From: an uncultured Bacteroidia bacterium
Lineage (GTDB): Bacteria > Bacteroidota > Bacteroidia > Bacteroidales > Prolixibacteraceae
Length of the DNA stretch: 39,346 nucleotides
Direction: 5' to 3'
Assembly (NCBI GenBank): GCA_903927965.1
Contig: CAIYPA010000147.1
Coordinates: forward strand, 1 to 39,346
Within the stretch, counting starts at the first letter, position 1, and each line of letters opens with the position of its first letter. The translations under genes were made by a program, and so were the position numbers. Below the pieces are notes generated by a model that did not search any database, was not told the origin of the DNA, and saw only the letters and a list, made by a program, of their open reading frames with translations. Of the stretch, positions 8,062 to 26,456 are shown piece by piece.

Positions 8062-8093
8062 AATGAAAGAATGAAGGAATGAAAGAATGGAGA
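8062..8093 (+). repeat. Tandem 8-bp repeat running into the VF530 start codon
   Basis: Units AATGAAAG, AATGAAGG, AATGAAAG and AATGGAGA follow each other without gaps. The start codon at 8087 lies inside the fourth unit. A change in unit number would alter the leader of the VF530 gene. Confidence 0.6.
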
Positions 8094-8305
8094 TGCAGAA
8101 AAACAATCCGTTACACGGAAAAACGCTTGAGATGATACTCAAGGAATTGGTGAACCATTATGGATGGGAAGAGTTGGGCAACAGGATCAGGATCAACTGC
8201 TTTATCAGCGATCCCAGTATCCGTTCGAGCCTGAAATTTTTACGCAAAACCCAATGGGCACGGGACAAAGTTGAACAGCTTTATCTTGAGACTTTTGATT
8301 TATAG
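8087..8305 (+). CDS. VF530 family (DUF2132) small DNA-binding protein
   Basis: Seen: 72 residues containing the family signatures [31 protein letters not shown] and [13 protein letters not shown]. Known: VF530 proteins are single compact domains related to double-stranded-DNA-binding folds; their physiological role is not established. A second ATG at 8093 (MQKNN) is also a possible start. The gene follows the RNA helicase by 61 nt on the same strand and ends by overlapping the last 25 nt of the convergent nucleotidyltransferase gene. Confidence 0.9.
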
Positions 8306-9396
8306 CTCTTTAAATGATCAAGGTACCATTTGGGGTTGCCAATGCGATTGAAAATCGACCTGCGGATATTCCGGTCGTAGATTGCCCGAAAAATGTAATT
8401 TACAGAATTGCCAAATCTAAACAAAAGATACAGGAAACCATTTGAGAAATGCGACCACCCGGAATGGTCAATCTTATAGTAAACCCGCCAAAGAAATAGC
8501 TTTGTCCGCCAATTTGACTGAAAGGATAATGATCCCGGATGACCAAGAAGTTGATCTGCCAAGGCAAGGTTTACGTTCATCCGATGAAAAGAAACCCCAT
8601 AAGCTTTCACCGCATCCAGAGGACTTTCTCTTCCTGATAACAACAAAAGGTCATAAATCTGACGAAAAAATACCTTTCCATAATAGTGTCCTTTATCATT
8701 GACCTGAACGTTCAAAATATTGAGAACAATTTGATGAAAATCGCTCAAAACAGCAGCTTTACAGGGCATATTCAACATCCTGACGGTTTTAAAAAAGAGC
8801 TCAATATCCATAGTTTTAAAAAAGGAGGAAATAAAAACCTGCCGGTGAAGTTCAACTGCCGCCATCTTGTCATTGTTGATAAGCCGAGGGTAATGCCTAT
8901 TGATTTTCAGGCTATTGGGGTCAAACTTAACAATTGGGACGTATCCTTTTAAGATTAAGATTTCCGCAGCCCTTACCAAATCGTATTCTACCACAAGTAT
9001 ATCAATATCCCCAACCTGCCGTTCACCAATATCGTCATATAAACCATCCAAAAGGTGGCCAACCCCTTTTAAAAATATTGGGATAATCCCATGCTGGTTA
9101 AGCAATTCAGTGATCTCATAGGCCTGTTCAATCAGTTGATGGTTGCGTTCGCGGTTCAGCGATGTGAACTCCTCCATGTATTCCACCAAATCGGTTGGCA
9201 GTTCCTGTAAAAGTCCGGCCTGCCTCAACTGAACATACAACGCGCTGAAAACGATCTGGTCGGTGCTGACCCACACCACTTGTTCCCAAACTACCGAACC
9301 GGAAAGGATCACCTTCCTTACTTCTTCCGTTCGCTCAGGACAATGACCCAAGGATAGGCATTTGCCAATGAAAAACAGTGCTTCTTTATAGGTCAT
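8281..9396 (-). CDS. Nucleotidyltransferase family protein (NTP_transf_5-like)
   Basis: Seen: 371 residues from the ATG at 9396. The central motif has [16 protein letters not shown] then [12 protein letters not shown], which fits the LKG...R..DiDiL signature of this nucleotidyltransferase family, with the DID acids as likely metal ligands. The C-terminal half is helical with no clear motif. Known: family members occur in RiPP clusters, including some lasso-peptide loci beside HPr-kinase-like genes, where they are thought to modify the peptide or a phosphate on it. The ATG overlaps the stop of the kinase gene by 11 nt, so translation is probably coupled; an upstream TTG at 9414 is less likely. 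Function here is inferred from context. Confidence 0.82.
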
Positions 9397-10525
9397 CCCG
9401 AAATAGTTTGTCAATCGTCTCCAACATCAATTTGTTGTCCGAATAGGTCAATTGGTAACAGGGAATTTTAAGGAACCAGTCCAAAAAACGGGAAGCATTC
9501 TCCTGAATCGGCGAAATCCATGAATCGGGCACCAGAAGCTTAAAAGCAGTATCCTGGGCCATCTCTTGAATTGTCAAACCACTGTTATTCTTGTATTTGA
9601 CAAAGACAAGTGCTTTGCAGGGATAACTTATTGATTGATTTTCAAACTGATGAAGTGGGGGCAAATACCTGACTGTTTTGTCCAATCCCTGATAATAAAA
9701 TTCTTTTGCAGATGCCAATTGCGGATAAATGGGAATCAAATAATCAAGCGCATTTTTCTTCACTGAAATGGCAGCAGGAAAAAAGAATACCTCAGAAGAA
9801 CGCCCATCTACTGGAACGAAATCATCTGCGAGCAGATCAAATCCATTGGCCATTAGTAAAGCCGAAATGGTGCTTTTCCCACTACCGGAACCGCCTAAAA
9901 ATAACATACATTGGTCCCCCTTGGCCATGGCCGAAGCATGGAAAACGCCCAGCCAATCCTTATCACACTTCCCATAAATCAGGTTGAGCAGTTCCATCGA
10001 AAATTTTCCGGTGAAGTAATTTATATTTTCAGGTTTCCATTGCCCAATTACTGTCCCATTTACCCTTAATATCGTTAACTCCTTATCTAGGAAAACCTGA
10101 ATTTGATGGTCTGCACAACGATTTGTAACTTCCTCAAGATTTGCTATTTTGGGATGGATCAAAAATTCTAACTCCTCAGTTTCGTATTCAACTGAATAGA
10201 TTGAACCTTTGATCAGATAATTTTTACGTGAAGAAAACTTTTCAGGAATTGTTATTTGGACAGAATGGTCAATGGACTCCAGTTCGAGATTAGGTTTATA
10301 TTCCTGTATTTCAATAAGATGAGTTATTTCGTCCACAAATTGTGTTGCCCTGGATTTTGGAAGGCCATAAGATTTGCGGCACAGAATTATGGTTTCCTCA
10401 CGGGTTAGCCCATCGCCAATCATTTTGATAACATCAAATGCCGGTATTTCTACAAGCATATACCGGTTGCTCCGTTCAAGCCATACTATTTTCTTGTGTA
10501 CAACTGAGCGTTCTAAATAGTTCAC
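9386..10525 (-). CDS. PqqD-like domain fused to HPr-kinase-like P-loop domain
   Basis: Seen: 379 residues with a GTG start. Residues 1-80 (VEIPAFDVIKMIGDG, then FVDEITHLIE) match a PqqD/RRE-type fold, the winged-helix domain that binds RiPP leader peptides. Residues about 165-379 form an HPrK-like kinase: H196 in VFHASA, Walker A GGSGSGKST at 211-219 with K217, and LLADDFVPVDG with D234-D235. Between them is a beta-rich segment. Known: HPr-kinase-like enzymes in lasso-peptide clusters phosphorylate the precursor. Inference: the N-terminal domain recruits one of the small peptides encoded 34 nt upstream and the kinase domain modifies it. It overlaps the nucleotidyltransferase start. The PqqD call is by pattern only; the kinase call is firm. 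Confidence 0.83.
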   Translation of the reverse strand: MNYLERSVVHKKIVWLERSNRYMLVEIPAFDVIKMIGDGLTREETIILCRKSYGLPKSRATQFVDEITHLIEIQEYKPNLELESIDHSVQITIPEKFSSRKNYLIKGSIYSVEYETEELEFLIHPKIANLEEVTNRCADHQIQVFLDKELTILRVNGTVIGQWKPENINYFTGKFSMELLNLIYGKCDKDWLGVFHASAMAKGDQCMLFLGGSGSGKSTISALLMANGFDLLADDFVPVDGRSSEVFFFPAAISVKKNALDYLIPIYPQLASAKEFYYQGLDKTVRYLPPLHQFENQSISYPCKALVFVKYKNNSGLTIQEMAQDTAFKLLVPDSWISPIQENASRFLDWFLKIPCYQLTYSDNKLMLETIDKLFRDDL

Positions 10526-10559
10526 AGGGTAATTTTACATTTTTGCAAATAATGTCCGG

Positions 10560-10712
10560 CTAAAAACTTTTTGCCTGGGCTTCCTTAGGTGACAACAGAA
10601 TAATGGCGGCTGCAGCCGTAAAAGCAGCATATTTCCCAGCTTTTTTCAGGGCCTCCTTGCGGGAAATATTTATCCTTTTTTTTGCTTCACTTCCTTCTTT
10701 CTTCGTTTTCAT
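10560..10712 (-). CDS. Small peptide A, conserved leader with short tail (candidate precursor)
   Basis: Seen: 50 residues. After a charged, Lys-rich N-terminus comes ISRKEALKKAGKY (16-28), a hydrophobic stretch AAFTAAAAIILL (29-40), and SPKEAQA (41-47), leaving only KSF at the end. The layout is that of a signal peptide with an Ala-x-Ala cleavage site, and the SRKEALK part resembles a Tat motif with RK in place of RR. It is a paralogue of peptide B at 10917-11096: over 30 codons from RKEAL to AQA only two differ in amino acid. The gene lies 34 nt upstream of the PqqD-HPrK fusion gene on the same strand. It may be the substrate of that enzyme. The three-residue tail could be a reduced core. 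I know no named family. Confidence 0.72.
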   Translation of the reverse strand: MKTKKEGSEAKKRINISRKEALKKAGKYAAFTAAAAIILLSPKEAQAKSF

Positions 10713-10873
10713 AACTTCAAATTTATATCCATTCTCCGTTTATAAACTGCTTTGGCAGAAACGCCGATAAAAATAGTTTTTTTACTGATAAAATACGAAT
10801 AAGGAATATAAATTAATGTTGTCAGATGACATTACCGATAGGGAGTCTCCATTATCTGCTTGAATATAATACA

Positions 10874-10901
10874 GAAGGGACGCAATTCCTTGCGTCCCTT
10901 C
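10874..10901 (-). terminator. 12-bp hairpin between the two small peptide genes
   Basis: GAAGGGACGCAA and TTGCGTCCCTTC form a perfect 12-bp stem with the 4-nt loop TTCC. On the minus strand it starts 16 nt after the stop codon of peptide B, and a moderately T-rich stretch follows. It may stop most transcripts after peptide B, or protect its 3' end, giving peptide B in excess over the enzymes. No other feature was seen in 10713-10916. Confidence 0.65.
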
Positions 10902-10916
10902 GTGTAAAACGATAAT

Positions 10917-11096
10917 TCAATAACCAGCCCCCCTACCATCAGGAGTCGTGCTGTCTGCCTGTGCCTGCTTGGGCGACATCAGGATGATGGCCGCAGCAGC
11001 CGTAAACGCCGCATATTTCCCCGCTTTTTTTAGGGCCTCCTTCCGCGTAATGTTTAATTCCTTTTTTACTTCTTTTTCTTCTGTGTTGATTTTCAT
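10917..11096 (-). CDS. Small peptide B, conserved leader with 12-residue tail (candidate precursor)
   Basis: Seen: 59 residues. The layout matches peptide A: charged N-terminus, ITRKEALKKAGKY (16-28), AAFTAAAAIILM (29-40) and SPKQAQA (41-47), then the tail DSTTPDGRGAGY. Cleavage after AQA would release this 12-mer, which is polar and Gly-rich with Ser, Thr and Tyr side chains open to modification. Compared with peptide A, 12 of 30 leader codons differ silently and 2 differ in amino acid, so the leader is under strong purifying selection while the tails share nothing. It is the first gene of the minus-strand cluster with peptide A, the PqqD-HPrK fusion and the nucleotidyltransferase. A plain secreted small protein remains an alternative. 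Confidence 0.76.
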   Translation of the reverse strand: MKINTEEKEVKKELNITRKEALKKAGKYAAFTAAAAIILMSPKQAQADSTTPDGRGAGY

Positions 11097-11312: not shown

Positions 11313-14300
11313 TTACTTCCGTTTCCAACTGAACTTCTTCGTCTCGATTCCCTTTCCCGATTCTACCTTCAACAGATAAACACCTGTGGCACAATTGTTC
11401 AGTGCAATTGTGTTTTCAATTTGTGCCGAAAGATCCGATGTGGCGACCAGTTTTCCGTTCATGTCGAAAACCATGGCCTTTGCAGGAAGGTCGAAATTGC
11501 CAATGATCCTGACCAAATGTTGTTCGGGGATTGGGATTACCTTAAATTCGTTGAGCAAACTTTCGTCAATTGCAGATACGATTTCGATTGTATGGAGGTA
11601 GAACCTTCCTGTCCCGTTGCTTGCAGCTTCCAGCGACACCTTATAAACGCTGTTGGCTTCGTCCAAACATGTGAATGTTGATGTCCCCTTGTCCTCAAGG
11701 TAAACCTTGTATCCTGATGGGAGGTTGTCAGCCATGGCCTTAAAGGTAACCGTGGCGCCCTTATCGGCAACAAGACCAACAGGGACCACCATGCTTTCGA
11801 GGTTGTTGTTGGGCAATGCCTGAACCGTAAAGTCAACACCATTGTCTTCTATCAACCTGGTAAACAAGCTAAAAGAAGAATCGGTACCATTGAACAAACC
11901 TGCATCTTTGCCCGGGTCAAGCCCTTTTGTCGCACCGCCAAAGTATTGGACGGTTGTCCCTAATATCCCGTTGCCGTCATCCACGGTCAATTGAATGGTC
12001 GGAATGTCCACAGTGGCAGCCTTGAAAGCTGAAGAAACGTTGGATTTCATGGCAGTGGTAAAACTGATGCTACCGCCACCTGTTTTTGCCTTGACAAAGA
12101 ACCCCTCGCCGGGGGCCAATTTAAGCCCATCGGCTCCCAAAACAGGGCTATAACCTTTAGCAGCAACATCCCCTATATTTGAAACATAGATGGCCAGGTA
12201 ACTTGGATCGAGCTGTGTTGTATTTGCCGTATTTGGCTCAATGAATTTTGCGATGTCCAAAGCACTTGGGTATGGGTTGCCGATCAGGTTCCAGCCGTCA
12301 CCCGTTTTAGTGACCGGAATGTTAATGTTTGCAGCCGCCAGTGTCCCTTTAAAGGTCAGCTTGCCGTTATCGGTAGCAGGCCCACTTCCTGTGCCTGTTC
12401 CGGCACCATCTGCACGCATCACCTGAAAACCTTTGGCCGGAGAGCCAAACTGGCCTGTGTTGGCTCCCGCAACTTTGTAATAGTCCCATTTTCCGGTCCC
12501 TTCGAGCCAGGGAGCGAGTGCATAATTGGTTGTGTTCCTCGCTATCAGGTTGTTATTGGCAGGAAGGACAAAACTGGCGACCGTTTCACCTGCGGTTGCG
12601 GCCGGCGAAATCAAATGCCAAAGATTGCCCGATACATAACGCTCAACAGTCCCCGGGACACCTGCCGTGCCATTGATCAAAGCACCGGTTCCATCGGCAG
12701 CAGCAGAAGCGGACTGGACAACCAGGCCTGTAATGCCGGCATTGTTGGTCAATGTCCCGTTTACGGTAAGGGCTTTGCCAGCAGCGATGGTTACGGTTCC
12801 ACCGGTTTGGATGGTCAGGTCCTTGCAAACCGCCGGGGTGGCAGGCAACTGGCTGACCACCGGAAAATTGGTAATCCCGACACTGGGAACAATTGCATTG
12901 TCGGTTGCCGTGGGGACTGCGTTTCCGTTCCAATTTCCGGCAGTATTCCAGTCGGTGCCTTCGGAGCCGTCCCAGGTAAGGGTTGGGATTCCAATACCGG
13001 TCAATGCAAAAGTGTATGGATTTTTAGTGGTATCCTGGTTGGCAAACGAGACCGTTGCGGTTTTTGCACCTCCGCTTGTGGGGGCGAAACGGACCGTAAA
13101 AGTAGCCGACGAACCGTTGGCAACCGTTGTGGGATTGTCGCCCTGGAAACTGAACAAGCTGGCATCGGTCCCGGTGATCGTGAAATCTCCCAGCGTAGAG
13201 GTGGACGTTCCTGTGTTTTCGATCGTAAAAACCACATCGGTATTGGTAGAAGTGGTTTGGCTGCCAAAATCATAAGTTCCTGATTCATCTGCAATTGCTG
13301 TTGCGCCTTGTTTGACATCCATTTCGGGGGCAAGCACTATTTCATGAATATAATAAGGATAATTCCTGGTGTTATTGTAGTAGGCGATCCCGACACCCGA
13401 AGCCGTATTGACCATCGACGCATATTCGCCTGTCATTCCGGTTGCGTCCAAGGTTACAGGTGTGCCCCAGGCCGATCCTGTGGCATTGCCGGCTTTTGCA
13501 TATTTTAAAGCCCGGTTGGTAGCATCATAATAAGCAATGGCCGGATTTCCGCCTACGGTTTGCAACGAGTTATATTGCCCCACATAGCCCACAGCATCCA
13601 CGGTAACGGGCGTGCCCCAAGTGGTCCCATCTGCCTGGCTTGCCATAACAAATTTTAAATCCATAGAACTATCATCATAATAGGCAACGGCCGGATTTCC
13701 ATTTACAATTTGCATTGAAGTATATGGCCCCACCCAGCTCGTTGCGTCTAATATAACCGGAGTTCCCCAGGTTGCCCCATCGGTACCGGTTGCCCTAACA
13801 TATTTTAACCTGCCTTGTCCACCAGAAATTACATACGCAATTGCCGGATTTCCGTTCACGATTTGCAGTGAAGGGTATTGCCCCACAGTACCAGTTGCTT
13901 CCACCGTAACGGGCGTACCCCAGGTTGTGCCGCCTGCATCGGTTGCCCGAACATATTTTAAATCGTAGTTTGTATTATCGTAATACGCAATTGCGGGGTA
14001 TCCGGTCACGTTTTGTAATGAAGCGTATTTCCCCACATCGCCTGTTGCATCCACCGTAACGGGGGTTCCCCAGGCTGTGCCCGTGGCATCGGTTGCCCGT
14101 ACATATTTAAGATCGAGGTTTGTTACATCGTAATAGGCAATGGAAGGGAAACCGTTGATGTTCCGGATGGAAGTGTATTGCCCCACGTCGCCCGTTGCGT
14201 CTATCGTAACCGGTGTTCCCCAGGCTGCCCCACTGGAACTTGTGGCCCTGACATATTTCAAATCTTCATTGGCCACATCGTAATAGGCAATGGCAGGGTT

Positions 14301-15605
14301 GCCGTTTATGATCTCCGATGAAAGATGCTGCCCGGTGTTTTGTTTAATATAACCATCAGCACCCCAGGTTGTTCCATCGGCATCGGTTGCCTTAACATAT
14401 TTTAAATCCTTGTTTGTGCTATCATAAAATGAAACTGCCGGGGTTCCGTTTACTACTTGAACAGAAGGGAAAGCGTAAACACTACCGTTTTTGTTCAAAC
14501 CTTTTTGAGAACCCCAGGCTGATCCGTTGGCATTGGTTGCTCTTATATATATTATAGAAGAACCATCATAATAAACAATTGCCGGATAGCCGTTTACAAT
14601 TTGCAAAGAAGGATTATATAGGTTAAAAGTGCTAGTAGCGACAGCAACTTCCGCACCCCAGGCAGATCCGTTGGCATCGGTGGCCCTTGCATAAAATACA
14701 TTAAAATTAACTAAACATTTTCTAAAACTTGTACTATAATATGGTCTTAAATAAGCAATAGCGGGATTGCCGTTCACGATTTGCAAGGAAGCATGAGCTC
14801 CGTAATTGGGGCAATTGCGACCAGAAGGGTTAGTAGTTATTGTCCCCCATGCTGTCCCGGTGGCATCGGTTGCCCTTGCAAATTTTAATTTTCCGTTTCC
14901 AACATCATAATAGGCAATGGCCGGATTGCCGTTTGCAACCTGCATCGAGGCATCTTTCCCCACATTGCCGGTAGCATCCACAGAAACGGGTGTCCCCCAG
15001 GCCGTTGCGTTGGCATCGGTTGCCCTTATGTATTTTAAATCGCCGTTTGTAACATCATAATAGGCTATTGCCGGATTGCCGCTTACGATTTGCATGGAGG
15101 TGTATTGCCCCACATCGCCGGTCACATCCAACGCAACGGGTGTCCCCCAGGTTGTCCCATCGGCATCGCTGGCGACCGCAAATTTTAAATCCTGATTGGT
15201 CACATCGTAATAGGCAATGGCGGGGTAGCCGTTTACAACCAGCAGCGAAGTATATTGCCCCACATTGTCGGCAGCATCAACCGTAACGGGCGTTCCCCAG
15301 GCAGTCCCATCGGCATCGGTTGCCCTTACGAATTTTAAATCGCCGTTTGTGGCATCATAATAGGCAATGGCCGGATTGCCGTTAACTACGCACTGCGTGG
15401 AGTACTGTCCCAGGTCGCCACCTTCGTCGGTCACAGGTTCTGCCGGCACCGGCGTGCCCCAGGTTTGTCCATTTGCGCTGCCTAAACCAAATGCCACGAA
15501 CATCAGCGTCATTAGTAAAACCATTTTGAATTGCATTCCCGTTCCCGGAGCTGCAACCTGAAATGGAATTAAATTGTTCTGTTTTTTGGAAATTACATTT
15601 TTCAT
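11313..15605 (-). CDS. Giant secreted T9SS cargo protein with 14-fold propeller-like repeats
   Basis: Seen: 1430 residues from ATG 15605. A hydrophobic export segment (about 28-45) ends SANGQ. About 14 tandem repeats of about 48 residues (roughly 65-755) carry NGNPAIAYYD, DLKYVRATDADG and WGTPV. A choice-of-anchor-D-like Ig domain follows (760-870), then WDGSEGTDWNTAGNW (about 878) and a beta-solenoid. From about 985 to the end lies a module shared with the 2289-residue protein, including a type A T9SS sorting domain (last 75 residues, ending KKFSWKRK). Known: that domain directs export across the outer membrane, is cut, and the cargo is attached to the surface. Inference: a surface adhesin or binding protein. 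Upstream frame to 15761 is rejected because it starts before repeated non-coding DNA; ATG 15536 is an alternative start. Confidence 0.9.
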   Translation of the reverse strand: MKNVISKKQNNLIPFQVAAPGTGMQFKMVLLMTLMFVAFGLGSANGQTWGTPVPAEPVTDEGGDLGQYSTQCVVNGNPAIAYYDATNGDLKFVRATDADGTAWGTPVTVDAADNVGQYTSLLVVNGYPAIAYYDVTNQDLKFAVASDADGTTWGTPVALDVTGDVGQYTSMQIVSGNPAIAYYDVTNGDLKYIRATDANATAWGTPVSVDATGNVGKDASMQVANGNPAIAYYDVGNGKLKFARATDATGTAWGTITTNPSGRNCPNYGAHASLQIVNGNPAIAYLRPYYSTSFRKCLVNFNVFYARATDANGSAWGAEVAVATSTFNLYNPSLQIVNGYPAIVYYDGSSIIYIRATNANGSAWGSQKGLNKNGSVYAFPSVQVVNGTPAVSFYDSTNKDLKYVKATDADGTTWGADGYIKQNTGQHLSSEIINGNPAIAYYDVANEDLKYVRATSSSGAAWGTPVTIDATGDVGQYTSIRNINGFPSIAYYDVTNLDLKYVRATDATGTAWGTPVTVDATGDVGKYASLQNVTGYPAIAYYDNTNYDLKYVRATDAGGTTWGTPVTVEATGTVGQYPSLQIVNGNPAIAYVISGGQGRLKYVRATGTDGATWGTPVILDATSWVGPYTSMQIVNGNPAVAYYDDSSMDLKFVMASQADGTTWGTPVTVDAVGYVGQYNSLQTVGGNPAIAYYDATNRALKYAKAGNATGSAWGTPVTLDATGMTGEYASMVNTASGVGIAYYNNTRNYPYYIHEIVLAPEMDVKQGATAIADESGTYDFGSQTTSTNTDVVFTIENTGTSTSTLGDFTITGTDASLFSFQGDNPTTVANGSSATFTVRFAPTSGGAKTATVSFANQDTTKNPYTFALTGIGIPTLTWDGSEGTDWNTAGNWNGNAVPTATDNAIVPSVGITNFPVVSQLPATPAVCKDLTIQTGGTVTIAAGKALTVNGTLTNNAGITGLVVQSASAAADGTGALINGTAGVPGTVERYVSGNLWHLISPAATAGETVASFVLPANNNLIARNTTNYALAPWLEGTGKWDYYKVAGANTGQFGSPAKGFQVMRADGAGTGTGSGPATDNGKLTFKGTLAAANINIPVTKTGDGWNLIGNPYPSALDIAKFIEPNTANTTQLDPSYLAIYVSNIGDVAAKGYSPVLGADGLKLAPGEGFFVKAKTGGGSISFTTAMKSNVSSAFKAATVDIPTIQLTVDDGNGILGTTVQYFGGATKGLDPGKDAGLFNGTDSSFSLFTRLIEDNGVDFTVQALPNNNLESMVVPVGLVADKGATVTFKAMADNLPSGYKVYLEDKGTSTFTCLDEANSVYKVSLEAASNGTGRFYLHTIEIVSAIDESLLNEFKVIPIPEQHLVRIIGNFDLPAKAMVFDMNGKLVATSDLSAQIENTIALNNCATGVYLLKVESGKGIETKKFSWKRK
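13330..15420 (-). repeat. In-gene tandem repeat array, period about 144 nt
   Basis: Thirteen clear copies and one decayed final copy code for units of about 48 residues. Copies differ from each other mostly at silent positions, while AIAYYD, LKYVRAT and W-G are kept. Copies corresponding to about 14340-14850 are the most divergent, and one carries an inserted segment with two Cys-containing turns. Confidence 0.85.
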
Positions 15606-15679
15606 AGAATTATAAATTGAATTGGTAAAATTTTCTGAACCAAAATTTGGGGAAATATTATTTAGCTCCAAATTTTCAG

Positions 15680-15730
15680 GGGGTACAAAAAGGGTACATT
15701 TGGGCACATTTGGGGTACAAAAAGGGTACA
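15680..15730. repeat. Pair of 19-bp direct repeats upstream of the propeller protein
   Basis: GGGGTACAAAAAGGGTACA occurs at 15680-15698 and again, identical, at 15712-15730, with a start-to-start distance of 32 bp (three helical turns). The pair sits 75-125 nt before the ATG at 15605 and could be an operator for two bound proteins. Between here and 16047 no gene is seen; a fragment near 15849-15868 (CGCTAAGG...TTTGCGG) resembles the palindrome at 16048-16200. Confidence 0.65.
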
Positions 15731-16047
15731 AGTCGGGGTGTTTAGTTAAAATTAAGGCCAAGGCCGGTTTAGGGGGAAAATGGCGTCTTTTTTTTCAGAT
15801 TTTGGAGGATCAACGAAAAGTTTGTTTTTCTGCTTTTTCCATTCAAACGCTAAGGTTTTCTTTGCGGAAGTAGGCTGTTTTTAGGAAATATGGTTTTTAA
15901 AACCTTATTTTCTTTATTTCAATCTTAGTAACTAAATATGAGTACTTTGAACATGATCTTATTCCCTTATTGTCAAGCAATTATGCTTACGATCCATCAC
16001 AGGTTTGGATATATCCGGAGAAGAGCAGACATGTGCGTAATTGGTAA

Positions 16048-19586: not shown

Positions 19587-22500
19587 TCATTTCCGGATCA
19601 TCATTTTTATAGTTTGGGTCGTGCCTTTATCTTTTACATTCAGCATATACAAACCGGATTTAAGGTTAGGGAGGCCAATGATATTAAGGCTACCCGCACC
19701 CAAGGTTTTAAAGAGTATTACACGTCCTGATGTATCAAAAAGCGTTGCTTCAGCATTACTTCCCACCTCGCCAATTAGATGGATTTCCTTATTGCCCTTG
19801 GCATAGGCAGTCAACTTACCAGGAAGATTATGATCTTCCAATCCGCTGATAATGTCGGAAGTATGAAGGAAGAAACGATCGGAACTGGCTGTATTTGCAG
19901 CCAACGCAGCTTTGTATTCATTTTTAGAAAGGTCAGTAAATGTATTCGTTAGCTTATCCTCCAAAATTACCCTGCAACCAGCTTCCAGATTGGCAGTTTC
20001 TGCCGTAAATACCACCTCTCCAGCTGTTTTCAAATCAATTCCTACCGGTATTACCAATTTATCGTAATGGTTTGTTGGCAGACACTGTAACTGGAATTCG
20101 ACACCATTGTCCTCGACAAGTTTTGTGTAAAGTGAAAATGATGGGTCGGCTTTAAAAATTCCGGCATCGTATCCAACATCAAGGCCTTCATGCATACCGC
20201 CAATGAATTTTATTTCAGTGGCAACATGGATATCATTTACAGTGGCAACAAGTTTAATGGAGGGATAAGTTGTCAATGCTGACTTAAACGAAGTTGTTGG
20301 CTGATGCACCTGCATATCTTTCGTAAAACTTAAGGTCCCGCTGGTCGTCTTCACAAAGAATCCCTGACCCACCTGAGCATATGTCGCACCTGAACTACTA
20401 TTGACTACAAGATAACTTTTTGCAACATCGTCCCAAAAGTAGGCAGCTGTATAATTGGGATCAATTGTCGGGACCAATCTACCCGAGTTGTAGGTTAAGA
20501 AACTGTTTACCCCACTGCTTATCTGAATTGAAGAGGTATAAGGATTTCCAATACAGTTCCAACCTGATGCTACGGATGGCAAAGTTGTTCCGCCGTTCAA
20601 GGCACCCTGAAACTTTAGGGTGAGCCCATTGTCCAAAATTGTGCGAACCAGATAACCTTTTCCGGCCCCAAGAAGTGTTGATTGGTTGATGTTGTCTGTA
20701 AAATAACTGTTCCAGGCATTTCCTGATGTACTGTAATCCGTCATACCATAGGTATAAGTTGACCCGGGCAATGGAGTGGTTAAAATTGGGATATCCAGAT
20801 TGTTATTCAGGAAACTCCAGATGGTTTGGTCTGCCGGAACACCGATCAGGTGCCATTTGTCATAGGTCATATCCCGCTCAACAGTTGCTGGGGCAGAGGA
20901 ACTCCCCCAAATAATTAACGACCCGGTACCGGCGGAGTTGGACCTGATGGTTAACCCATCTATACCCCCGTCGTTAACGACTGTTCCTGAAACCGTGACC
21001 TGCTTGTCGGTAGGAATTTCCAGTTTCCTGCCACTGTTGATGGTAAGTGTACTTGATACTGTGGTCAAGGAATTGTTTGTGAAGGTCACACCTGCTGCAT
21101 TATCAATGGTCAGGTTATAAATTTTATTGTCAAGGAACTCGCTATTCCCAATGGTTTGGGCTGAACCCCCTGCATAAACGAAGGTAGGAGTATGGGTGTT
21201 TGCATCCAATTTACCCGAAGTTGCAGTGAGCGTATTCAACAACTTCAAAGTGCCATTTAACGTTACGTTGGCTGAATTGTCCACTTCAAGGTTATAGACC
21301 AGATCATTGTAGAATGTAGTGGCTGGAATGGCCTGGGCTGTGGCCCCGCCAAATTTGACAGTAGCGTTTGTTGCAGAAGCGTCAATAAACCCGGAAGTTT
21401 TACTGATTGCTCCATTGATACCGAGGATTGGATCGAACAAAGTCAAATTCCCGCTGGTAAGTGTAAGCGCACCGTCAACATTTATGGTTTTGTGCAAATG
21501 GACTCCACTTGTATTGCTGATGGTAAGGTTTTTAAAAGCAATCGTTGACAAGTCCGCACCCAAAACTGCCTGCAACTGTGACCCATTCATTGTAATTGTT
21601 GTTCCTGTTGTTGGCGTAAAAGTACCTTCATTGTCAAAATCACCGGCAACCGAATGGTCGAAAGCCCCGGTCGCAAAAGTTGAACCGGTTCCGATGATCA
21701 ACGATCCTCCAATAGTTAAGGCAGCACCCGCTGTTACAGAGGCTGTTCCGGAAGTTGTCAGGTTTCCATGAAGGCTAAGGGGAGCCCAGGGCATTGTTTT
21801 CGTTCCACTGCCACTTAAAGTAAGATTGTGATAATGGGGTGATCCATCGGGCAATAATACTGTCTGGTCCCCACCGTTGTACTCTACCGTTGCTCCAAAA
21901 ACATCGGCGTACCATTTGCCAGCCAATGTTCCGGTTTTGGAAATGGTACCAGCTATTTTCATCACACTGTTTGTTTGGTTGGTGATATCGGCCACATTGT
22001 CTGCATCACTGTAAATTTGCACATTGTTAAATCTGGCATTCCCTGAAATCGTCGTATTTTTCCGGTTAAAGATTACAGTACTTGTTCCCGGGTCGTTGCC
22101 CAATGAGTTTTGGTCTTCCCAGCCCCCGCTTAAAGTGTTTTGTATTGTTAGTGTATTGTCTCCCATGGTCAAAATGCCGCCATTTTCAATGCTAATTGTA
22201 TTAATGGTCGTATTTCCCGTTGGTAGTACCGGATCGTTTGGTGTGGTGGCTCCATCCGGTATAATAACATGGCTCAGCTCAGTTGGAATTCCAACACCAC
22301 CATATGGAAGTGTCCAGTTGGCTGCACTTCCCCAGACACTGGATTCGGATCCATTCCAGGTAAAATAATCCACACCATAATCACGTAATGCAAAGATGGT
22401 CCTCCAAGCGTGTGTAACCGGTATTTGGATAAAATAATCGATGGGTACACTTGAAAGCCCGATATAATTATTGGTGTAATCATAATTGGCCCGGCCATGT

Positions 22501-25500
22501 TCATCGGAAGCATTAGCGCCACCTTCAATATCATAATCCATGGTCGTTAATTTTTGCTCTGAATTTACGTGAAATGGACTATTGCTGCTCGTCAATTCGG
22601 ATTCCAGATAATGAAAGTTGGCCGTAACAAAGCAATTGCTTCCACCAGTAGGGACAATTTCGTAGGTCCTTCTTACGGCATCATTGATGATATCGTCTGA
22701 TTTTTTTGTGTTATTAGGCGAGGTCCCTATTGTAATTGTGACTAAAAGGGCAGTTGGCATTGTGCCAGTTGTAAGTGAAACAGTGGTATATTGATGTCCA
22801 AATGTATAAGGCGTATTTGCCACAATGGTTGCCCTTTTTACCGTTCCGGTAACATCGCCAATTCCGATTGTGGTAGCGGTAGAGCCCATATTCAACAAAT
22901 AGGAGCTCAAATAATCTGTAATCGTTGTACCCGGGTAATTGGTATAACTTCGGGTCATTTCCAATAACCCTTTGGTGGCTGAAGGGTTGGAAGCAGCTAA
23001 ATTCAATATGCCATTTAAAGTGATATCACTTCCTGCTGTAACACCACCTGCCCCGTTAATCGTCATGTTATTCACTGCTGTACCTCCAAAAAAAGTAGCA
23101 GGCAAAGCAATGGAAGAAGCATTTGCAAAAACGAAGTTGGCAGAACCATTGCTTGCATCAACCGATCCACCACCACTTGTTGGGGAACTTCCCGAAATGG
23201 TGAGGGTATTGGCACCAACAGTCAATGTCCCGGAAGTTAAGGCAAGTGTTCCTGCAACACTTACATCACCCCCTAAAGCGATTCCGCTTGAACGGTTTAA
23301 AGTTAAGTTATTCAATGTTAAAGCCGGTAAAGTTGTGCTTGCTGTACCACCGAAGGTGAGGCTTGAAGTTGCTCCACCCGTTAGGGAACCCGAAGTTTTG
23401 GTGATTGCCCCATTCAACGTCAAGGTATTTGCCCCGATGGCCAATGCCCCACTTGTTAGAGTAAGAGTCTGTGAAACAATTAAATTGTCATTCAATGTAA
23501 GGCCGTAGCTGTTGTTTAAAGTTAGACCGTCAATTGTATTGCTGACAAATGCACCTGTGGGGATGATTTGCGCCGAGGTTCCTGCAAAAACAACCGTAGA
23601 AGAAGTGGCTGTTGCATTTATCTGGGCACCATTTGAAAATGTAACGTCTTTGTTTATTGTAAGTTGATGCCCATTGGTAACCAGTTTGTATGTGTTTTGG
23701 GCATTGGTGATCGTGCCAACTGTCCTGTTCTGGTCCAATACACAATGGTTAACAGGACTTGCGGCAAAAGTAATATCTGCACCTGCCGGGGGCACTTCGG
23801 CTGGAAGCCAATTCGAAGCTGTGTTAAAATCGGTACTTCCTGAACTGCCATACCACACATAACTATTCGACTCCAAAGCACCCATTTTTGGTATTGTTGG
23901 TCGGGTGAGGCCTGCATAATCGGTCGTAATTCCTGTACCCGTAATGCCTGGCAGTACAGCAGAAGTAGCATAATTTGACGCGGAAGTGCCACCTGCCGTC
24001 GTAAATTGTGGGTCAATATTCAAACTGTGTGCATCACCACCGGTAGCTGTTTTCAATGTTGCAAGTGTTTTGTCTGCACCAACATAGGCCACAGTAACAC
24101 CTGCCGATCCCGTCCAATAATCATTGTAATCACTAGTCAAGCCTGCATTTCCGACTGCTTTTAAGTAAAAGGCATAATGTTTTCCGGTTCCGCCGTTGCG
24201 GGCATTAAAAAACACATTGTTCCTGAAATCGCGAGTAGATGTATTGTATTGGTTATTAAACGCAGCAGTGGTTGAACCACCTGAAGTTACAGTACCTCCG
24301 ATGTAAATCGAATTAAACAAAATACTTCTGGCCAATGAAGCGTTGCTTTCGTCCCAAATCCCGTTTATAATATAACCACCTGCAATCCCAACTCCCAGAT
24401 TGACAATGTTGTTCGCACAGGCAAAAGTTCCTCCTGCAAGCTCAATTCCTTCAATATCGGATAAATTATCGGATGAAGCAATTGAAAGGGAGTGGATAAA
24501 ATTATCGGAAATCGCATGTGTCCCAGCGATTGGTCCGCTGTAATATATCCCACTGACATATACTTTTGCAGTGGCACTTGCGTTTGAAAGATTTGAAACC
24601 GTATTCCCTGTAATGGTTTGTGTCGTTCCTGCAGTTGTACTTGATTGGGTGATACCAGTTACGGAAGCTGCTGACCCTCCAGAAGATTGCTTGCTATAAG
24701 ACTTTAAATCCTTGACAGTGTTGTTCTGAATTGTATTTGTTCCGGCAATCACTGCGATGCCCCTTGTGCGCGACAATGAAATAAGACCGGAGTAGTTATT
24801 GGTCAAATTGGCTACTATATTTCCGGTAATGATATTTGTACCGGAAGCCGAATTGCAATACAGACCATAAACATCCTGCTTTAACAGTGATGAATCAGCC
24901 GCAGAACTCACCTGAATACTATTGGCGGTGCTGAGGCTTCCAATTAAATTATTGCTAAGTGTAGTTGTTCCGGAATTTCCCCTAACATAAACCGATTCAA
25001 ATCCATGGGAATAATATTTGGAACCGACCGTTGTGATTGAACCAATGTTGTTCCCTGTGATGTTCACCGTTCCGATACTGTTGTTGATCATTCCGTGCGA
25101 TGTGGAATAATTATTGGATTGTCCGTCGAATATTACCGATGGTATTGAGGTATAGCCGACGCCTCCGGTAAGACCTGTAAAACCAATTACAACACCACCG
25201 CTTATTTCTGCGGTTGCAGTAGCCGAAGTTGTGCTTCCGGATACCGAAAAAGTTACCGTTGGAGCGGTTGTATAACCACTTCCACCGTTAAGTAGTTTAA
25301 TTGACGAAACAGCTCCTCCAGTCAACGTAGCAGTAGCTACGGCCACAGGTGTTGAGCTGATAATGGACCCAGAACCAGTTGTTGCCCCTATTGTATTACC
25401 AGTAACATCAAAATTGCCGGAATAAAGGAAAATGCCATCCCATGGGTTATCTTCAGTACTACTGTAATCCATGTGGGAGATGACATTGTTTGAAATGTTT

Positions 25501-26456
25501 GTGGCCGTACCAGACCCAGCGTAAGCGTAAATAGCGCAGTAATAGACTGCATAAGGTGCTTTAAAAGACCAGGTTCCTGCGCACGAAGGTGCATTGCCCC
25601 CAATATAATTGCCGGTGATTGTATGTTCGTTTGTCGTGCTTATGCGTATCGCATTATAGGATAAAGCATTGGCAGTTGGAACAAATGTTGTGGTCTCATA
25701 GATGCTGTTGCCTGAAATTGTAAAACCAACAGAAGCACTGTTGATATTGATCGAGTTTGAACTGACGCTTGTTTGAAAAGTATCGTAAATATTGTTGTTC
25801 CGGATAATGCCGCCATTGTTTTCGCGGCCTCCTGTACCTGAAGAAAGGATGGCATTATAGGGTCTGTTGCCACCTGAGCAGGTAAGGTTGCAATTTTCGA
25901 TGGTGTTGTTATCGTTTCCATTACCGAGGCTACTTCCGCCAAAACTGACGATACCCATTGCCGAACTCGCGGAAGAACCTGTTAAATAGCAATATCTTAC
26001 AATGTTGTTTTCGGCTGAATTTAAAAAACGGACGGTTGCAGCACCATTTCCGGTACTTGTTCCTATAATGGTCAAACTTTTTGTTGAACCTGTCTGATCG
26101 ATCCTACCATCAATCGTTACATTGTCAGCTCCATTCAGGTCAATTAAGGCAAAGTTGCCAAAAGTTGGTGCGAGCGTGGTAGCGGTAATGCTAAAAGTGC
26201 CTTTGGGATAAATCAGCACAGAAGTGTAGCTTGCCGAGCCTGTTCCGCTTGCGTTAAGTACTGCCGAAGCGGTCTCTGTTGTGCTTCCCGTAATTTGAAG
26301 GATAACCTGTCCTTGAACAGCTCCACTGTTAATCGCTGCAAAGGCAAGTTGCAACGTTGAATAATTGGCACCTCCTCCACCAACAGTTTTGGTTGTTTGC
26401 CCCTGGGCTATTCCGACCCAAAGCAATAAAACCGTTAAAAAAAGGCGTGATTTCAT
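19587..26456 (-). CDS. Giant secreted T9SS beta-helix surface protein
   Basis: Seen: 2289 residues. Signal peptide (1-19, ending AQGQ). A right-handed parallel beta-helix with many short Asn/Gly-rich turns (about 30-860: NTIENCNL, NNIYDTF, ITGNYIGG, ISNNVISHM). Then several WxGSxGSTDFNTASNW-type segments and solenoid repeats (about 870-1850) with TLTLTSGAL, ANTLTLNG and KTSG. From about 1858 to the end is the module shared with the 1430-residue protein (WHLIG, GWNCIGNPY, GQGFFVK, EDNGVEF), ending with a type A T9SS sorting domain. Known: such proteins are exported by T9SS to the cell surface. Inference: adhesion or polysaccharide binding; a pectate-lyase-like fold is possible but no catalytic residues were identified. 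Confidence 0.92.
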   Translation of the reverse strand: MKSRLFLTVLLLWVGIAQGQTTKTVGGGGANYSTLQLAFAAINSGAVQGQVILQITGSTTETASAVLNASGTGSASYTSVLIYPKGTFSITATTLAPTFGNFALIDLNGADNVTIDGRIDQTGSTKSLTIIGTSTGNGAATVRFLNSAENNIVRYCYLTGSSASSAMGIVSFGGSSLGNGNDNNTIENCNLTCSGGNRPYNAILSSGTGGRENNGGIIRNNNIYDTFQTSVSSNSININSASVGFTISGNSIYETTTFVPTANALSYNAIRISTTNEHTITGNYIGGNAPSCAGTWSFKAPYAVYYCAIYAYAGSGTATNISNNVISHMDYSSTEDNPWDGIFLYSGNFDVTGNTIGATTGSGSIISSTPVAVATATLTGGAVSSIKLLNGGSGYTTAPTVTFSVSGSTTSATATAEISGGVVIGFTGLTGGVGYTSIPSVIFDGQSNNYSTSHGMINNSIGTVNITGNNIGSITTVGSKYYSHGFESVYVRGNSGTTTLSNNLIGSLSTANSIQVSSAADSSLLKQDVYGLYCNSASGTNIITGNIVANLTNNYSGLISLSRTRGIAVIAGTNTIQNNTVKDLKSYSKQSSGGSAASVTGITQSSTTAGTTQTITGNTVSNLSNASATAKVYVSGIYYSGPIAGTHAISDNFIHSLSIASSDNLSDIEGIELAGGTFACANNIVNLGVGIAGGYIINGIWDESNASLARSILFNSIYIGGTVTSGGSTTAAFNNQYNTSTRDFRNNVFFNARNGGTGKHYAFYLKAVGNAGLTSDYNDYWTGSAGVTVAYVGADKTLATLKTATGGDAHSLNIDPQFTTAGGTSASNYATSAVLPGITGTGITTDYAGLTRPTIPKMGALESNSYVWYGSSGSTDFNTASNWLPAEVPPAGADITFAASPVNHCVLDQNRTVGTITNAQNTYKLVTNGHQLTINKDVTFSNGAQINATATSSTVVFAGTSAQIIPTGAFVSNTIDGLTLNNSYGLTLNDNLIVSQTLTLTSGALAIGANTLTLNGAITKTSGSLTGGATSSLTFGGTASTTLPALTLNNLTLNRSSGIALGGDVSVAGTLALTSGTLTVGANTLTISGSSPTSGGGSVDASNGSANFVFANASSIALPATFFGGTAVNNMTINGAGGVTAGSDITLNGILNLAASNPSATKGLLEMTRSYTNYPGTTITDYLSSYLLNMGSTATTIGIGDVTGTVKRATIVANTPYTFGHQYTTVSLTTGTMPTALLVTITIGTSPNNTKKSDDIINDAVRRTYEIVPTGGSNCFVTANFHYLESELTSSNSPFHVNSEQKLTTMDYDIEGGANASDEHGRANYDYTNNYIGLSSVPIDYFIQIPVTHAWRTIFALRDYGVDYFTWNGSESSVWGSAANWTLPYGGVGIPTELSHVIIPDGATTPNDPVLPTGNTTINTISIENGGILTMGDNTLTIQNTLSGGWEDQNSLGNDPGTSTVIFNRKNTTISGNARFNNVQIYSDADNVADITNQTNSVMKIAGTISKTGTLAGKWYADVFGATVEYNGGDQTVLLPDGSPHYHNLTLSGSGTKTMPWAPLSLHGNLTTSGTASVTAGAALTIGGSLIIGTGSTFATGAFDHSVAGDFDNEGTFTPTTGTTITMNGSQLQAVLGADLSTIAFKNLTISNTSGVHLHKTINVDGALTLTSGNLTLFDPILGINGAISKTSGFIDASATNATVKFGGATAQAIPATTFYNDLVYNLEVDNSANVTLNGTLKLLNTLTATSGKLDANTHTPTFVYAGGSAQTIGNSEFLDNKIYNLTIDNAAGVTFTNNSLTTVSSTLTINSGRKLEIPTDKQVTVSGTVVNDGGIDGLTIRSNSAGTGSLIIWGSSSAPATVERDMTYDKWHLIGVPADQTIWSFLNNNLDIPILTTPLPGSTYTYGMTDYSTSGNAWNSYFTDNINQSTLLGAGKGYLVRTILDNGLTLKFQGALNGGTTLPSVASGWNCIGNPYTSSIQISSGVNSFLTYNSGRLVPTIDPNYTAAYFWDDVAKSYLVVNSSSGATYAQVGQGFFVKTTSGTLSFTKDMQVHQPTTSFKSALTTYPSIKLVATVNDIHVATEIKFIGGMHEGLDVGYDAGIFKADPSFSLYTKLVEDNGVEFQLQCLPTNHYDKLVIPVGIDLKTAGEVVFTAETANLEAGCRVILEDKLTNTFTDLSKNEYKAALAANTASSDRFFLHTSDIISGLEDHNLPGKLTAYAKGNKEIHLIGEVGSNAEATLFDTSGRVILFKTLGAGSLNIIGLPNLKSGLYMLNVKDKGTTQTIKMMIRK

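Follow-up and report, generated by a model that had tools for sequence, protein, structure and literature searches.

The window analysed here is a stretch of 39,346 nucleotides from an uncultured Bacteroidia bacterium of the Prolixibacteraceae (assembly GCA_903927965.1, contig CAIYPA010000147.1), and its minus strand carries four neighbouring genes for two short peptides, a two-domain kinase fusion and a nucleotidyltransferase (NTase). A first-pass annotation made from the sequence had presented these genes, in this order and on one strand, as a candidate peptide-modification cluster, and all four were recovered at the positions it gave. Peptide B (10917–11096, minus strand as are all features below unless noted; 59 residues) has a leader ending in AQA and the tail DSTTPDGRGAGY. 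Peptide A (10560–10712, 50 residues) has a full leader and a tail of three residues, KSF. The fusion (9386–10525, 379 residues) joins a PqqD-like domain, predicted to fold as a RiPP (ribosomally synthesized and post-translationally modified peptide) recognition element (RRE; residues 1–78, 10292–10525), to an HprK/PEPCK-like kinase part (residues 99–379, 9389–10231). The NTase-fold gene (NTP_transf_5, PF14907) was called at 8281–9414 (377 residues from a TTG); the start that agrees with its relatives is the ATG at 9394–9396, within the 3′ end of the fusion gene, which bears out the reported overlap of the NTase ATG with the kinase stop.

Upstream of these genes lies a gene for a 1482-residue cargo protein of the type IX secretion system (T9SS) (11313–15761), which ends in a type A C-terminal sorting domain (CTD; 11331–11534, located in a whole-genome TIGR04183 scan) preceded by a module that we describe below (11565–12626, located with module profiles). 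The peptide B gene is 216 nt downstream of this cargo gene. Between peptides B and A, at about 10874–10901, folding against shuffled sequences revealed a hairpin with a 12-bp stem and a 4-nt loop (minimum free energy −29.2 kcal/mol for a 76-nt stretch, z = −6.4 against 200 shuffles); no RNA family reached its gathering threshold across the window. The hairpin has a terminator-like position between peptide B and the A–fusion–NTase genes and may terminate transcription. Therefore, B may close one transcript and A, fusion and NTase may form the next. Peptide B goes with the upstream cargo gene and not with a four-gene operon.

Peptides A and B are members of a conserved family of 83 distinct sequences; iterated profile search of the neighbourhoods fetched from family genomes gave 62 matches, fragments included. 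Against Pfam and NCBIfam, both gave sub-threshold matches only (best E 0.015). The family leader has the consensus R-[KR]-[ED]-A-[IL]-K-K-x-G, followed by a hydrophobic run to near A-x-A; M1, R18 and A21 are invariant in the 56-row alignment, and tail lengths vary. Eighty-two peptides could be parsed. A-x-A precedes the tail in 62 of these, as counted by a script that favours A-x-A, and the median tail is 13 residues long. The tails are patterned, Ser coming early and Trp, Phe or Tyr late: a Ser falls within the first three tail residues in 62/82 (2000 within-tail shuffles gave a mean of 29.5 and a maximum of 42), and in 66/82 one of the last four residues is aromatic (shuffles, mean 23.8, maximum 37). 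All but one of the tails (81/82) contain Ser or Thr. The best 15-residue Kyte-Doolittle mean of the leaders is 0.93–2.33 and, judged by composition, the leaders resemble Sec signals, with a basic n-region, a hydrophobic core and A-x-A. Tat targeting, suspected from S-R-K-E-A-I-K, was dropped, the first Arg being the sole invariant one; the Tat motif is S-R-R-x-F-L-K, and here the second position is mostly Lys, with R, G, A or E in the rest. A precursor with a conserved leader and a variable core encoded near enzymes is a general hallmark of RiPP systems, and the peptides look like such precursors of leader plus tail.

The peptides fall into two classes. Class I peptides are encoded downstream of a cargo gene and mostly have short tails; class II peptides are encoded divergently from an adjoining fusion gene and mostly have long tails rich in Gly, His and Asn. 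The source genome (G000; 7.57 Mb, 584 contigs) contains paralogs of B on contigs C23, C537 and C256 (86%, 80% and 76% identity), two further, divergent peptide matches on C304 and C571, and two more copies, broken or cut, on C456 (a broken gene at L022:3989–4141) and C99; the latter two and a peptide-like open reading frame (ORF) on C360 were excluded from the tail and leader counts. Peptide A, with a tail far shorter than those of its relatives, may be a copy in the process of losing it. Across 34 comparisons of peptide paralogs with dS under 2 (12 saturated of 46 comparisons were dropped), the ratio of nonsynonymous to synonymous substitution rates (dN/dS) was 0 to 0.54, and 0.10–0.25 in 23 of them. 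Thus, the peptide paralogs evolve under purifying selection. Together with the alignment of the fusion and the NTase over 49 and 37 sequences, respectively, this sets the genes beyond chance ORFs.

An AlphaFold2 model of the fusion, computed from 49 sequences of our own collected loci, has a mean pLDDT (predicted local distance difference test) of 93.6 and a predicted template modelling score of 0.90. Its first 76 residues form β-strands 3–8, 11–16 and 21–26 followed by α-helices 27–37, 42–53 and 57–76, the βββ-ααα order of the RRE fold, and in Foldseek searches this part matched the TbiB1-leader complexes 5v1u and 5v1v (TM-score 0.70 on the target; E 0.015 and 0.022; root mean square deviations 2.3 and 2.1 Å over 73 columns). 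By sequence, Pfam PqqD gave no match on the fusion, and solved-structure sequences gave weak matches only, mostly P-loops, with a TfuB1 profile at E 0.09. The remainder of the fusion matched PEPCK (best E 3.9e-6) and HprK (9.5e-4). Its sequence scored 67.7 bits with TIGR04352 (HprK_rel_A; cut-off 200), covering the C-terminal half of the profile (98–280), and 19.9 bits with PF07475 (cut-off 33.3). Hence, both halves of the earlier assignment, a PqqD-like N-terminus with a winged-helix fold and an HPrK-like kinase, are supported by the model.

In the 49-row alignment, W191, H196, G216, K217, D234, D235, K256 and Y361 are invariant. Lasso peptide tailoring kinases share a His-Lys-Asp-Asp motif that is required for activity, according to the available part of PMC9266682, and H196, K217, D234 and D235 agree with it in type and order, the motif being compared by its description there. 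By analogy with these enzymes, the kinase likely phosphorylates the peptide tail. A match in Dongia deserti (L163, 25% identity) sits, by eye, among polysaccharide genes.

The NTase belongs to NTP_transf_5 (PF14907, E 6.8e-29; 101.6 bits, cut-off 31.2). Residues invariant over 37 rows include K116, G117, R132, D136, D138, E188 and H190. Its AlphaFold2 model (pLDDT 92.8) matched NTase-fold proteins including MenAT1, TM1012 and LnuA in Foldseek, and FKRP weakly (E about 0.07–0.45), while solved-structure sequences yielded two chance-level matches only. The gene lies directly downstream of 52/77 fusion genes. Thus, the NTase counts as an accessory. In the pseudomycoidin cluster, as the accessible text of PMC9266682 has it, PsmK phosphorylates the C-terminal Ser of the peptide. 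The phospho-Ser then receives one or two hexoses, which requires PsmN, a protein with a nucleotidyltransferase annotation; the action of a host glycosyltransferase after nucleotidylation is left possible. Candidate groups for the product of the NTase here would be a nucleoside monophosphate, a hexose or an alditol phosphate. A gene for a 72-residue VF530-type DNA-binding protein (8087–8305, plus strand; PF09905, E 1.4e-35) converges on the NTase gene and shares 25 nt with its 3′ end.

The peptide and the fusion co-occur. Genome sets were drawn from the family, the order and the phylum, and these sets overlap slightly. In the family set, a peptide (E ≤ 0.01) was found in 40/140 genomes and the fusion (E ≤ 1e-10) in 52/140; the fusion was present in 39/40 genomes with a peptide, G002 being the exception, versus 13/100 others (Fisher 3e-22). 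In the order sample, 21/393 genomes had the fusion (E ≤ 1e-15) and 17/393 a peptide (E ≤ 1e-4). The fusion was present in 14 of these 17 and in all 14 with a peptide below E 1e-14; the three others (G194, G462 and G522) have weak matches in frames of 255–473 residues. In the phylum sample, the identical 5/395 genomes have both. The peptides are thus not found alone in many genomes, one of two findings that the first-pass annotation had named as fatal to its proposal; the other, a structure prediction lacking both the winged-helix fold and peptide binding, is contradicted as regards the fold. A named collection provided 16 loci, 14 of them close relatives at 45–60% identity to the query; the close relatives are metagenome-assembled genomes, several titled Prolixibacteraceae, and three named Prolixibacteraceae strains (Gaoshiqia sediminis A06, Sunxiuqinia dokdonensis DH1 and Maribellus maritimus 5E3). 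A peptide gene lies within 1.5 kb of 46/77 fusion genes. G615 and G837 each have one fusion–NTase locus and six scattered peptide matches.

The form of the leader also follows the fusion. Some leaders are long, with a GKYAA-like sequence, and others short. In a tree of 75 fusions, clade I comprises 14 rows (support 100/97), to which the weakly placed G420/G237 and G096 (59/0) were added, and a large clade comprises 45 rows (97/88); the class, clade and genome lists were entered by hand. Only long-form leaders occur in 12/13 genomes with clade I fusions alone, the 13th being unclassified by the script, and only short-form leaders in 27/29 genomes with large-clade fusions alone (Fisher 1e-7, uncorrected for kinship; one G064 peptide is counted as long-form, following the script, and is short-form by eye). 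The better test is within genomes. Four genomes combine large-clade fusions with clade I (G000, G086) or basal-clade (G004, G110) fusions, and three of these contain both leader forms, G110 alone having one. G000 itself has two fusions, on C147 and C106, and five long-form and two short-form peptides. Leader length, therefore, tracks fusion clade. Because of this matching and the predicted fold, it is likely that the RRE binds the peptide leader.

The genomic context that the first-pass annotation missed is type IX secretion. The 1482-residue protein is a type A cargo by TIGR04183 (E 1.3e-9, 37.9 bits against 23) and also matches PF18962 (31.6 bits against 27). Two sets of loci, the second made up of the order, phylum and own C360 loci, contained 89 peptide matches. 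In 70 of them the ORF directly upstream lies on the same strand and is not itself a peptide, a few of these ORFs being short and possibly spurious. TIGR04183 (E ≤ 0.01) was found in 64/70 of these upstream genes (39/44 in the first set and 25/26 in the second). The remaining 19 matches have an opposite-strand gene upstream (15, of which 13 are the fusion), another peptide (2) or a contig end (2). Gaps between cargo and peptide are mostly below 120 nt, with extremes of a 41-nt overlap and 418 nt, and all five intact peptide genes elsewhere in G000 follow CTD-ending genes at 85–418 nt. The G000 scan revealed 34 TIGR04183 places and one PorU sortase (1143 bits, cut-off 420).

Neighbourhoods read from the side of the fusion give the same picture. 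Around 80 fusion loci (fragments are counted), genes up to 6 kb away formed 342 neighbour clusters, of which 24 reached three loci and the 22 most widespread were inspected. The commonest is T9SS cargo (35 loci), with 38/41 members matching our own CTD profile; counted without clustering, a CTD neighbour is present on 36/78 fusion contigs. The next clusters (at most eight loci each) read as sensor kinases, as class II peptides and as housekeeping genes in synteny. By eye, candidates for a dedicated protease, exporter or immunity function in the 22 clusters lie near 3/80 loci at most, as do an MsbA-like ABC protein (three loci) and a subtilase-like protein (three). Peptides and their paired CTDs also diverge in step within genomes (r 0.62 over 25 pairs from 6 genomes, a value reached in 0/5000 within-genome permutations; in G000 alone r 0.98, reached in 140/5000), as would be expected if the two moved as a unit. 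A role of the peptide at the cargo is suggested by gene linkage only.

The paired cargos share a region ahead of the CTD. A profile of 389 positions, for which genomes other than G000 supplied 33 cargos paired with a peptide, was used to score the 34 CTD proteins of G000, of which 14 scored 82–428 bits and 20 scored below 23 bits or were unmatched. A peptide gene follows 7/14 module-bearing and 0/20 module-less CTD genes (Fisher 6e-4), with the C360 gene counted among the seven; hence, all seven peptide-paired cargos of the genome carry the module. Little downstream DNA was available for one of the 14 and for two of the 20 (C376, 421 nt; C60, 230 nt), and C60b and C304 look like halves of one gene broken in assembly. 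The module of the window cargo scores 346.9 bits with the profile from other genomes only and 371.8 bits with one containing its own row. Its motifs are WNxIGNPYTSA...LDPGYDAG...VEDNGVDF...LEDK (alignment A7). The window row had no Pfam or NCBIfam match at E ≤ 0.01; across rows, Pfam gave none and NCBIfam a weak regulator match in 2/26 rows only. Judged from these alignments, the pre-CTD module is a candidate new domain family.

The search for the module spanned 138/140 family genomes, all listed genomes being treated as among the 138. At E ≤ 1e-30 it occurs in 52/138, made up of 35 of the 52 genomes with the fusion and 17 of the 86 others. It occurs in 31/32 genomes with class I peptides, a figure that is partly so by construction, many seeds coming from those genomes, and that counts G084 and G097 although the ORF directly upstream of their peptides is not a CTD gene; the comparison within G000 is free of this bias. 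The window contains a second module-bearing T9SS protein, of 2289 residues (19587–26456, minus strand; 392.6 bits). There is no peptide gene in the 900 nt downstream of it, and it is perhaps served by peptides in trans.

Taken together, these data make it probable that a conserved Bacteroidota peptide-modification system, coupled to type IX secretion, has one of its copies at this locus. The idea of peptide modification put forward earlier thus holds, and so do the observations beneath it; what it lacked was the cargo. In the mechanism that we propose, a short precursor peptide would be encoded near a giant T9SS cargo gene, and in the cytoplasm the RRE of the fusion would hold the conserved peptide leader while the kinase domain phosphorylates a Ser or Thr of the tail, most likely the Ser just after A-x-A. 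The modification itself we infer from homology with the lasso tailoring enzymes. Where present, the NTase might add a nucleotidyl, sugar or alditol-phosphate group to the phosphate, as PsmN seems to with pseudomycoidin. The modified tail would leave by Sec, as the make-up of the leader suggests, with signal peptidase trimming the leader. Such a route would account for the lack of a protease, cyclase or exporter among the regular parts of the locus; of the export step first suggested, the Sec-signal-like leader fits, and an exporter as a regular part does not. Outside, the tail would serve the module-bearing cargo. It might take part in the reaction of the PorU sortase, as the acceptor or as an anchor, or be a partner bound to the cargo. 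In its fullest form, an undescribed T9SS branch in which an RRE-kinase controls a phosphorylated, decorated, Ser-Pro-rich peptide that is exported by Sec and acts as PorU acceptor, anchor or binder for module-bearing cargo, the proposal is speculative and we hold it with considerable doubt. If true, it would mean a genetically encoded linker replacing the sugar linker of Porphyromonas.

Several observations weigh against this reading. The fusion lies far below the TIGR04352 cut-off, outside HprK-related kinase A. No peptide match was found in 13/52 fusion genomes of the family, none lies within 1.5 kb of 31/77 fusions, and the NTase is not directly downstream in 21/77, with four more at contig ends. 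Half of the module-bearing CTD genes of G000 have no adjoining peptide (one is at a contig end), and the module is also present in 17/86 family genomes without a fusion match. It was not found in any of the 11 genomes with class II peptides only. Class II peptides, which have no cargo gene upstream, are what most resists a model centred purely on the cargo; the cargo cannot account for everything. The tail of peptide A is three residues only, the A-x-A counts carry the bias of their script, the cross-species counts are not phylogenetically independent, and the product is read here from genes.

Other explanations can be set against it. The fusion and NTase might modify a peptide whose product is an ordinary secreted RiPP, a signal or an antimicrobial, with cargo adjacency reflecting co-expression with a secretion programme or block duplication. 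The pairing of RRE and kinase, as in lasso tailoring, fits such a product, as do the class II peptides, and the cargo-peptide pairs of G000 look like co-duplicated blocks. We nevertheless consider it rather unlikely: the cargo linkage is seen again in several families whose peptides differ, pairing within G000 is confined to module-bearing cargos, the short tails are patterned and not strongly diversified, and in the neighbour clusters inspected by eye no apparent protease, exporter or immunity gene dedicated to the system lies near more than 3/80 fusion loci. HprK is a kinase/phosphorylase acting on a small protein. The peptide could correspondingly be a membrane-held adaptor or regulator, reversibly phosphorylated by the fusion to tune T9SS cargo in the way HprK acts on HPr; the fusion's kinase part resembles HprK, and a hydrophobic segment is present in all 82 parsed peptides. 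This we regard as improbable, given that an RRE points to leader binding for modification, that A-x-A (62/82, script-favoured) and a short tail suggest cleavage and export, and that a PF14907 NTase suits a terminal modification better than a switch.

A chance neighbourhood of spurious, signal-peptide-like ORFs beside enzymes that belong elsewhere would be compatible with the hydrophobic leader, with the three-residue tail of A and with the weakness of some family-survey peptide matches (E down to 0.01). It is hardly credible, being already contradicted by co-occurrence in the family and purifying selection, and peptide and fusion genes adjoin in many genomes. Within the coupling to T9SS that we favour, the NTase might, like FKRP, transfer a CDP-derived alditol or sugar phosphate to give a phosphoglycan-linked peptide. 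FKRP structures appear among the Foldseek matches, if weakly, and the requirement for PsmN in hexose addition (PMC9266682, in part) is in keeping with such a transfer; MenAT1, TM1012 and LnuA rank above FKRP, and all matches are at the level of fold. This variant is accordingly possible, although we lean against it.

Among known systems, lasso peptide clusters (paeninodin PadeK, ThcoK, SyanK; pseudomycoidin PsmK/PsmN) are the closest, sharing, so far as the available sections of PMC9266682 describe them, an HprK-like kinase with a (here putative) His-Lys-Asp-Asp motif, leader binding of the RRE type (here predicted), a short precursor and, in the pseudomycoidin cluster, an annotated nucleotidyltransferase. 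In contrast, a B2 protease, an Asn-synthetase-like cyclase and an ABC exporter are not regular parts here, the RRE is fused to the kinase, the leader is signal-peptide-like and precursors are scattered behind T9SS cargo genes. By eye, neither cyclase nor B2 protease was found in the window ORFs or the 22 most widespread neighbour clusters, and the earlier remark that lasso cyclase, protease, radical-SAM enzyme and transporter are absent holds for the stretch it was given. Membership in the lasso class was rejected on this ground, and the likeness is kept as a chemical analogy. HprK-related kinase A (TIGR04352) corresponds to the C-terminal half of the fusion, which differs in its N-terminal RRE. 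Systems of DUF2063/DUF2282 likewise combine an RRE with precursors that carry a Sec signal peptide, with other enzyme and precursor families (PMC12710340, partial text).

On the side of secretion, type B T9SS cargo of F. johnsoniae is served by dedicated, gene-linked PorP/SprF shuttles, one of which, in the consulted portion of PMC12618676, is shared by orphan cargos. The likeness is a cargo gene paired with a dedicated partner; here, however, the CTD is of type A and the partner is a peptide of ~50–110 residues with a kinase, not an outer-membrane protein. In P. gingivalis, PorU attaches type A cargo to anionic lipopolysaccharide (A-LPS) through a linking sugar that bears a seryl group (PMC13086638 and PMC7468200, both in part), the anchor being a 2-N-seryl, 3-N-acetylglucuronamide (PMC13086638). 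The present genome, too, has cargo with a type A CTD and a homolog of PorU, and we hypothesize that the peptide could be the acceptor in PorU attachment. We know of no peptide in the A-LPS linkage of P. gingivalis. Surface attachment of type A cargo is understood in few Bacteroidota, with sugar linkers in oral species. An enzyme-modified, gene-encoded peptide that travels with a cargo and one kinase would, if true, be a testable alternative mode of attachment, and as partner or acceptor a third solution beside the sugar linker and dedicated shuttles. Even without a role at the cargo, an RRE–HprK fusion with signal-like precursors would be a RiPP-like system of unusual simplicity, for which genomes can readily be mined with the module and peptide profiles.

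The RRE, the HprK-like kinase, NTP_transf_5 and T9SS cargo are each of a known kind; their combination, the peptide family and the module are new in the literature searched. Among the papers listed, titles and the beginnings of abstracts gave no description of the system, and no paper of the library searched, which leaves most subscription journals outside, pairs "type IX secretion" with "PqqD" or "T9SS" with "HPr kinase". The word "kinase" is absent from the main text of PMC7470986 and PMC12710340, and in the available part of PMC10352776 mentions of kinase, PqqD and RRE refer to a histidine kinase and to an extension of a radical-SAM protein.

The source genome contains other RiPP-like loci, identified by eye except for NTP_transf_5. 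A separate lasso-like cluster on C91 (L026, 30000–49000) encodes two Asn-synthetase-like proteins, HprK-like, sulfotransferase-like, PqqD-like and B2-like proteins, an ABC transporter and an NTP_transf_5 protein. On C548 (L027:6350–10844), PqqD-like, NTP_transf_5, ABC transporter, HprK-like and S24/S26-like genes stand in a row. A locus on C360 (L028:6945–14107) has two radical-SAM-like proteins, two peptides of 53–65 residues and an NTP_transf_5 protein with a signal-peptidase-like N-terminus. At the end of the same contig, a CRISPR-like array (L228:6497–7725; 19 copies of a 30-nt repeat at 64–67 nt spacing) starts ~220 nt behind a module-bearing T9SS gene, and the peptide-like ORF of C360 runs into it.

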